Shown one piece after another: positions 6,226-45,681 of a DNA stretch of 64,000 bases. The DNA is taken from contig OX638329.1 of NCBI GenBank assembly GCA_951812755.1, forward strand, positions 5,419,563 through 5,483,562, read 5' to 3'. Made by a program: the position numbers and the translations under genes. Numbering within the stretch: position 1 is the stretch's first letter; every line of letters starts with the position of its first letter. The notes beneath the pieces are model-generated. The model did no database searches. It saw nothing but the letters and a program-made list of their open reading frames with translations, and was not told the DNA's origin. The DNA comes from an uncultured Latescibacterota bacterium. GTDB taxonomy: Bacteria; Latescibacterota; UBA2968.

Positions 6226-6324
6226 CACATCAAAATCTGTTTACCCAGAATTTTCCTTGATGATTTGGCGTCTTAATGGTACACTTTATACGCGATGTGT
6301 GACTTCAAATTGGAGGTAAAGAAG

Positions 6325-28500: not shown

Positions 28501-29340
28501 CTATGCGTCATTGACCACCTGGCCCAAATTGGCTTCCTCGGCCACCTGCCTATATACTTCTGTTTTTGAAACCTCCGAAATCACAAAATCGAGAAAATCT
28601 ATAGCCTCCTGTCTCGCATCTAATTCAATACCGTATTGCCATTCCAGAGCATTCCCCACCAAATCACCCCACCTATCTCCATAGTTCTCCTGCACCCAGG
28701 ACGCAGCCATCTTCTTCGAGCCAACAACGGAGCAAATTACAGTATGTAGTATTCGACACAGATTCAGAATGAAATACGCTTCATGATGGCTATCCCTAAA
28801 ATACTCCGGATTGGATTTTTTCGGTGCCCATTCCTGAAACAAATCGCGAACGCAGGCTTTCCGCACATCCTCAACATCAACCGGGGGCGACAGCTTCTTA
28901 AAGCTCGGACCAAATAAAGCGATGGAATGACCATGAAGAAAATATTTGTTAATTATCCATTCATTTCCATAAGGTGCCTCCTCATAAAGGGTACAATCAC
29001 CACCCCAATACCATGGTCGAGGCTCCGTTGGAGGCATAACACATGGGAGCATCTTGACAGGCGTGTAAGAACACTCTAATCGCCCTGCCCATTTTTCGAA
29101 TTTCCCTTCTATCTCTCTGTGTAAACGCCCAATTGAATCGAGTTCACTTTGAGAAACTGGTCGATGCACAATCACAGTAATGTCAATATCACTGCTATGG
29201 TAGTTGAACGCATCATAGGACAGAGAGCCAGTCAGATATATCCCGAGTACATTTCCTTCGAGAACGGGCATAACGCTTTGAACGAAAAAATCTATAATCT
29301 CGTTCACATCGGGATATTTTGTAAGGCTGCTGGCAATCAT
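28501..29340 (-). CDS. Nucleotidyltransferase (aminoglycoside-adenylyltransferase-like)
   Basis: 279 aa. The catalytic motif LTGSLSYDAFNYHSSDIDITV (GS..D.D, residues about 38-55) and the helical C-terminal half with CRILHTVICS and SKKMAASWVQ follow the AadA/DUF4111 layout. Real substrates of environmental members are mostly unknown. The start codon is part of a 9-bp target duplication made by the element at 29347-29528, which has cut the gene off from its original upstream region; no good ribosome site remains. Confidence 0.87.
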   Translation of the reverse strand: MIASSLTKYPDVNEIIDFFVQSVMPVLEGNVLGIYLTGSLSYDAFNYHSSDIDITVIVHRPVSQSELDSIGRLHREIEGKFEKWAGRLECSYTPVKMLPCVMPPTEPRPWYWGGDCTLYEEAPYGNEWIINKYFLHGHSIALFGPSFKKLSPPVDVEDVRKACVRDLFQEWAPKKSNPEYFRDSHHEAYFILNLCRILHTVICSVVGSKKMAASWVQENYGDRWGDLVGNALEWQYGIELDARQEAIDFLDFVISEVSKTEVYRQVAEEANLGQVVNDA

Positions 29341-29346
29341 TGAATT

Positions 29347-29528
29347 ACGTCAGGTGTGACTTTGAAATAATGGTGAAGAAAACAAGCAATCAGTGGTCAG
29401 CAGTCAGAAAAACAAGGATTTTAGAGCCGTCATTGCGGCAGGGTGTTAGCCGCAATCCAGTGGTTTTGACTTTCTTATATCTGTTTATCGGTATTACTAT
29501 ATGGCGGTTTTGAAGTCACACATCACGT
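29347..29528. mobile_element. MITE-like non-coding element with 9-bp target duplication
   Basis: 182 bp bounded by terminal inverted repeats ACGTCAGGTGTGACTTTGAA (left) and, read inward from the right, ACGTGATGTGTGACTTCAAA; 17 of 21 positions match. The direct repeat CATTGAATT flanks it on both sides (29338-29346 and 29529-29537), as expected for a transposition target duplication. It has no coding capacity. Inside is a hairpin CATTGCGGC/GCCGCAATC almost identical to that in the tandem repeats at 45.2-45.7 kb. The left duplication includes the ATG of the nucleotidyltransferase gene. Confidence 0.8.
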
Positions 29529-29553
29529 CATTGAATTGTCTTCGTCTATACTG

Positions 29554-30102
29554 TCACGTCAACTTGCGTTTCATGAATATGGCAACTTCACCCTCAACAT
29601 CGCGATTGGTATAATAGGACAAATCGATACCATCGACGCCAAATCCTACACTTCGATAGAAATCAATAGCTGGCACATTGGTATTTTGAGTCTCGCAAAC
29701 TAAAATCCTCAGACCTTCAGCTTTGGCGATTTCCGCTACCTGCTCCATCAATTGCCTGCCGACGCCCTTTCTCCTGTATGACTCGGCAATCCCAAATTCT
29801 CTGATCCACAGACTCCTATTCCACTCTATCTTTTCCGAAATAGCGATACCCACAAGCTGACCAGCGTCGTAAGCTCCCAGCGACAGACCCTGATTGACAA
29901 GTTCGCTGTAGTTCCTGAAATCCTCATCCAATATTGACCAGCGTTTCACATAGGGTTCATCCAATTTTTCACGCTTCAGAATAAAGCAGAACTCATCAGC
30001 GGTCTCAGTCTTCGAGACCTGGTACCTATCAGTAGAAACATAACCATCCATTATATGCAGATCCTCGCGCCGTAACTGCTTTAATTTTCTGATTTCGACC
30101 AT
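29554..30102 (-). CDS. GNAT-family N-acetyltransferase
   Basis: 182 aa. The acetyl-CoA loop is AESYRRKGVGRQLMEQVAEI; QNTNVPAIDFYRSVGFGVDG is the closing segment. An 80-residue N-terminal half with DEPYVKRWSILDEDFRNY differs from the other GNATs here. Streptothricin-acetyltransferase-like proportions are possible but not shown. The 213 bases downstream hold the MITE-like element. Confidence 0.92.
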   Translation of the reverse strand: MVEIRKLKQLRREDLHIMDGYVSTDRYQVSKTETADEFCFILKREKLDEPYVKRWSILDEDFRNYSELVNQGLSLGAYDAGQLVGIAISEKIEWNRSLWIREFGIAESYRRKGVGRQLMEQVAEIAKAEGLRILVCETQNTNVPAIDFYRSVGFGVDGIDLSYYTNRDVEGEVAIFMKRKLT

Positions 30103-45213: not shown

Positions 45214-45681
45214 ATTAGTACTATTTCAAATAAGTTTCGTGTCTAAACCCACTGGACTCCGGCCTGCGCCGGAGTGACGAACGGCGGTTGTCATTGCGGC
45301 ATGGTGTTAGCCGCAATCCAGTCTTTCAGAAAAACATATCAGCAAATTTTTTTGACAGAGCAATTAGTACTCTTTCAAATAAGTTTCGTGTCTAAACCCA
45401 CTGGACTCCGGCCTGCGCCGGAGTGACGAACAGCGGTTGTCATTGCGGCATGCTTTAAGCCGCAATCCAGTCTATCAGAAAAATATATCAACAAATTTTT
45501 TTGACAGAGTAATTAGTACTCTTTCAAATAAGTTTCATGCCTAAACTCACTGGACTCCGGCCTACGCCGGAGTGACGAACGGCGGTTGTCATTGCGGCAT
45601 GCTTTAAGCCGCCACGCGAAGCACAACGTCAGTAATCCAGTCTATCAGAAAAATATATTAGCAAATTTTTTTGACAGACCA
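45214..45681. repeat. Three tandem ~149-bp repeats with hairpins
   Basis: Units begin at 45214, 45363 and 45512, each with ATTAGTACT and TTTCAAATAAGTTTC. Each contains the hairpin ACTCCGGC-CTGC-GCCGGAGT and a second, CATTGCGGC/GCCGC. The third unit is 170 bp through a 21-base insertion in the second hairpin (ACGCGAAGCACAACGTC). Unit 3 ends at the stop codon of the DUF2442 gene (ATTAG again). Nothing codes in this 500-base stretch. The GTCATTGCGGC hairpin also occurs in the MITE-like element at 29.4 kb. Confidence 0.9.

Follow-up and report, generated by a model that had tools for sequence, protein, structure and literature searches.

The locus described here raises the question of what kind of sequence separates two neighboring genes in the genome of an uncultured Latescibacterota bacterium, how it came to be there, and whether there is anything special about the start codon at its edge. 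The window that we analyzed is a 64,000-nucleotide stretch of contig OX638329.1, and the host genome consists of one contig of 6.53 Mb. A preliminary description had drawn attention to a MITE-like sequence of 182 bp with 21-bp inverted ends (17 matches) and a perfect 9-bp direct repeat at both edges, the left copy of which was said to include the ATG of a nucleotidyltransferase gene. Direct reading of the sequence bore out all of these points (Table 1). The two 21-bp ends are ACGTCAGGTGTGACTTTGAAA and, as the reverse complement, ACGTGATGTGTGACTTCAAAA, with 17 of the 21 positions matching, and the left copy of the 9-bp repeat contains CAT (29338-29340), the complement of the ATG. The interior of the element has no open reading frame of 60 amino acids or more and no transposase gene. 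As a single strand, the element folds better than shuffled sequences (z = -3.2, DNA parameters), and a search of Rfam returned nothing above threshold. Its end sequence has three matches in the window at three or fewer mismatches, compared to 0.29 expected.

Table 1. Features of the window at and around the 182-bp element.
Feature	Position	Strand	Evidence
Nucleotidyltransferase (AadA_C-type) gene, start codon in left duplication	28501..29340	-	279-aa ORF
Left 9-bp target-site duplication, CATTGAATT, holding the nucleotidyltransferase ATG (complement)	29338..29346		Direct reading; single copy at the empty site of L208
182-bp MITE, subfamily A, without a transposase gene	29347..29528	+	Host copies; absent at the site in six relatives
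Left terminal inverted repeat, fits AC(N)6T(N)5TT	29347..29367	+	IS982 motif from PMC7335449
Internal hairpin, GTCATTGCGGC...GCCGCAATCCAGT, separate dispersed palindrome	29429..29461	+	204 core copies in the genome
Right terminal inverted repeat	29508..29528	-	19/20 bases shared with the end of L098, which bears a transposase gene
Right 9-bp target-site duplication, CATTGAATT	29529..29537		Direct reading; empty-site comparison
GNAT acetyltransferase gene, upstream of the nucleotidyltransferase gene	29554..30102	-	ORF and domain match

Comparison with relatives demonstrated that the element was inserted at this position, and that it is present there in the host genome only among those compared. 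The nucleotidyltransferase gene is held by seven genomes of the genus, including the host. The other six (L203-L208) run through the site without the insert. One of them (L208) reads TCATTGAATTGTCTTCGTC, which is letter for letter the joined flanks of the window with a single exact copy of the repeat; three others (L203-L205) have one base different in the repeat. The same upstream gene follows in L203, L205, L208, and partly in L204, and there is another neighbor in L206 and L207. Because the site is empty in six relatives, the flanking repeats are due to an insertion and not to chance. An empty site with a single repeat is what the preliminary description had anticipated; its alternative, that the 182 bp might be fixed in relatives without the flanking repeat, was looked at and does not hold for any of the six.

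The element belongs to a multicopy family. Using pattern and BLAST searches, we found that the ends recur across the host genome, as the preliminary description had led us to expect, with 84 end sequences at one mismatch or fewer and about forty elements with IS982-type ends (see below). When paired elements of the host and its relatives (82 in all) were clustered, they fell into subfamily A, subfamily B, and mosaics, and no transposase gene was found among the 82 elements clustered. Subfamily A, which includes the window element, has 22 near-full and four partial copies in the host genome (86-98% identity), and 18 aligned copies have a mean pairwise divergence of 4%. Subfamily B elements are about 183 bp and have two other palindromes in the interior, and mosaics with the same ends reach 983 bp. 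Exact flanking repeats of at least 6 bp, mostly 7-9 bp with a mode of 8, were present at 61 of the 76 distinct elements of 400 bp or less; in a control with mismatched flank pairs, exact repeats were present in 24 of 5,700 (0.4%). At two loci (L014 and L021), nested or tandem copies share one outer duplication. The ends are present in all 11 genomes of the genus and absent from all four genomes that belong to other genera of the family, and the public records with these ends are mostly labeled Candidatus Latescibacterota, with one set labeled Gemmatimonadota. Short and non-coding, with inverted ends, a target duplication, empty sites, and dispersed copies, the window element is a MITE.

Several other occurrences of these ends were seen. 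The same ends are found on contigs labeled Gammaproteobacteria and Poribacteria (L184, L191, and L135), reflecting misbinning or transfer. The element of 983 bp (L061 1001-1983) has these ends, an 8-bp duplication, and no transposase gene, and is filled by alternating repeats of several palindrome families. Elsewhere in the window (6290-6305), a lone exact subfamily B end, ACGCGATGTGTGACTT, is located ~20 bp upstream of a gene for a FitA-like ribbon-helix-helix antitoxin, and this end precedes the same antitoxin gene in two other species (L084 and L093).

The nucleotidyltransferase ORF next to the MITE matches AadA_C (E = 5.8e-11) and, weakly, NTP_transf_2. Ancestrally, 22 nt separated the stop codon of the acetyltransferase gene from the start codon of the nucleotidyltransferase gene; the gap has since grown to 213 nt, which places the nucleotidyltransferase gene 191 nt further from the acetyltransferase gene. 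Because the start codon was copied in the duplication, the nucleotidyltransferase reading frame survives intact. The preliminary description held that the gene had lost its native leader and kept its start. The second part stands, but the first requires some revision: the duplication preserves 6 nt upstream of the ATG, the leader beyond -6 is element sequence, and the chief loss is the closeness to the acetyltransferase gene. Any effect of the insertion on expression is one that we infer. If there were such an effect, through uncoupling from the acetyltransferase gene or through a leader supplied by the element, the insertion might have been retained because of it, and the position of the insert, where 22 nt had separated two genes on the same strand, together with the preserved downstream frame, would be in keeping with this. 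We consider retention for this reason quite improbable, given that a scan of the relevant strand for promoters and terminators gave no signal clearly above chance, that the presence of the insert at this site in the host only, among the genomes searched, gives no sign of conservation, and that almost all copies of the MITE are intergenic anyway.

Does the start codon in the duplication reflect a special target? None of the 22 host copies examined clearly interrupts a gene, and the few ORFs that span a copy are short or overlap element sequence. The duplication contains a start codon in two of the 22, the window element and a second copy (L019, 1499-1690) whose 8-bp duplication, TATGTACA, includes the start codon of a methyltransferase-like gene. 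By a rough estimate, a preference for intergenic regions combined with duplications of 7-9 bp would give about one such case per 22 copies, so coincidence, with targets this small, is the simplest account of the start codon in the duplication.

The ends point to the transposase family that may have moved the MITE. Published IS982 ends conform to AC(N)6T(N)5TT, and the direct repeats of that family vary in length (PMC7335449). This motif fits both ends of the window element and 147 of 152 ends of the family. A screen of lone ends identified a contig of a relative (L098, from genome G004) in which the end ACGTGATGTGTGACTTTAAA, closely similar to the right end of the window element (Table 1), is followed by a 211-codon ORF that runs to the end of the contig. 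This ORF matches the NCBIfam model transpos_IS982 with an E value of 7e-33, but at 114 of 130 bits it is below the curated cut-off. Of the loci found, L098 is the best candidate for a parent. In a phylum-wide search, we found the same pairing of end and transposase in two other families: an element at its full length of 1,079 bp, frame-disrupted and with no duplication (L198, from G038), and an end with an IS982 transposase gene that is cut by the contig (L199, from G046). The preliminary description had envisaged a full-length IS with these ends, and these three loci indicate that such a transposase-encoding element exists in relatives. In addition, G003 has a 183-bp element (L095 501-683) that is recognizably such an IS with its interior deleted, matching the 5' end of L098 at 90% and the 3' end of L198 at 77%. 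Through this element, the transition from an IS to a miniature form can be seen within the genus.

The interior of the window MITE appears to have another origin than the IS. A deletion derivative should have IS sequence beyond the inverted repeat, and such sequence was found only in L095 501-683 and not in the window element. Queries with the IS matched no subfamily A element, and beyond the ends we detected no similarity between these IS and the interior of the window element. Pairing of the ends throughout the single contig of the host genome yielded only MITEs, mosaics, and lone ends, and no intact autonomous element with these ends. The host does have one intact-looking IS982-family gene above the NCBIfam cut-off (L197), with ends that match those of the window element at 12-14 of 20 bases; it was rejected as the parent because of this difference in the ends. 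A second IS982-like gene of the host (L194) is short, has no such ends, and was also rejected. Other candidates for a larger element were an end pair around a recombinase-like gene (L120), which has three mismatches and no duplication, and 756-bp pairs in L085 and L113, in which ends are paired by chance across an ordinary gene, with no duplication.

If a transposase of some other family mobilized the MITE and the IS982 likeness of the ends were accidental, one would expect what we found, an interior unrelated to the IS and no autonomous element in the host genome that has precisely these ends. This reading seems very unlikely to us, in that IS982-type transposase genes are bordered by the same ends in three families of the phylum, the end motif and the variable repeat length are as published for IS982 (PMC7335449), and the genus has an element derived from that IS by internal deletion. 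Because the ends fit the motif and the same ends occur at an IS982-family transposase gene in relatives, mobilization in trans by an IS982-type transposase is the most likely explanation of the sequence data. We believe that the window element is very probably a non-autonomous IS982-type MITE that was inserted at a 9-bp staggered cut by a transposase encoded elsewhere. An IS982-family DDE transposase would recognize ends of the type ACGTSATGTGTGACTT, and the 182-bp element would enter the 22-nt gap between the acetyltransferase and nucleotidyltransferase genes at the staggered cut. Repair would then duplicate the 9 bp, with the start codon among them, and leave the downstream frame intact.

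The alternative that the element is a REP-like, hairpin-based palindromic repeat and not a DDE-type MITE, with terminal repeats that are secondary, draws on the ~204 genome copies of the hairpin inside the MITE and on how well the element folds, but it is scarcely credible given the target duplications and precise empty sites, which are marks of DDE-type insertion, and the fact that the hairpin is mostly found without these ends. There was also no match to PF01797 (Y1/RAYT transposase) in the host genome, in a search with positive controls.

The hairpin itself consists of TCATTGCGGC, a loop, and AGCCGC at 29430-29453, and has four copies in the window. The other three are in the 45-kb array (45291, 45440, and 45589; chance 0.01), consistent with the earlier proposal that the MITE and the tandem repeats at 45 kb have a hairpin in common. 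Three subfamily A copies (L020, L021, and L022) have the same 22-bp insert in the hairpin, and a near-identical insert is present in the 45-kb array (45291-45640). The inserted, or long, form accounts for 25 of the first 100 among the matches listed. The insert-bearing copies each resemble different insert-free copies: L021 resembles L006, with the same substitutions, L022 has changes in common with L005, and L020 has changes in common with L011 and L017. The short and long forms thus differ by the same 22 bp at the same place, and the change between them took place independently in three or more lineages of the MITE. Because loss of the insert lengthens the perfect stem, repeated quasi-palindrome correction is a plausible ordinary cause of the change in form. 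We think it very unlikely that a dedicated process drives the switching of this two-state module. If one did, and if quasi-palindrome repair or gene conversion were not responsible, the hairpin would reveal a new mode of form change in dispersed palindromes.

In G003, the IS deletion derivative is part of a larger arrangement. Over 1,703 bp (L095 501-2203, contig G003:C33), an ORF of ~417 codons that has no Pfam match stands between two IS982-type miniature elements, one being the deletion derivative and the other a MITE of subfamily B. An 8-bp duplication, AAGGCAGA, is present at the outer ends only, and no empty counterpart of the site was available. This unit is likely a composite MITE transposon, in which the two elements appear to have moved the gene as a unit. 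Composite MITE units are known (PMC13367494).

The insertion in the window is ordinary in kind and well documented here, and its mechanism is already known. What the analysis provides is an IS982-type MITE family documented in an uncultured phylum: its empty sites are clean, relatives have a candidate parent IS, and in one case two of its elements form an apparent composite; the family should also be useful for repeat annotation in these genomes. IS982-derived MITEs have been documented in Cardinium (PMC9769881). One of these, MITECca01 from Cardinium cOegib (PMC9769881), is like the window element in being short and multicopy, with no transposase gene and with ends resembling those of an IS from the IS982 family. 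It differs in its length of about 240 bp, in that the genome carrying it also has its parent IS intact, and in having parent-derived sequence beside its end, whereas the interior of the window MITE bears no relation to the IS that we found and the host genome has no intact parent. IS of the IS982 family (PMC7335449) are about 1 kb and encode a transposase, unlike the 182-bp window element, which shares with them the AC(N)6T(N)5TT ends and the direct repeats of variable length. In TIME-COMP composite structures (PMC13367494), which are known for moving resistance genes, the bounding miniature elements derive from Tn3, and the G003 unit (L095) has IS982-type elements and a cargo gene without a Pfam match; the two are alike in having a passenger gene between two miniature elements.
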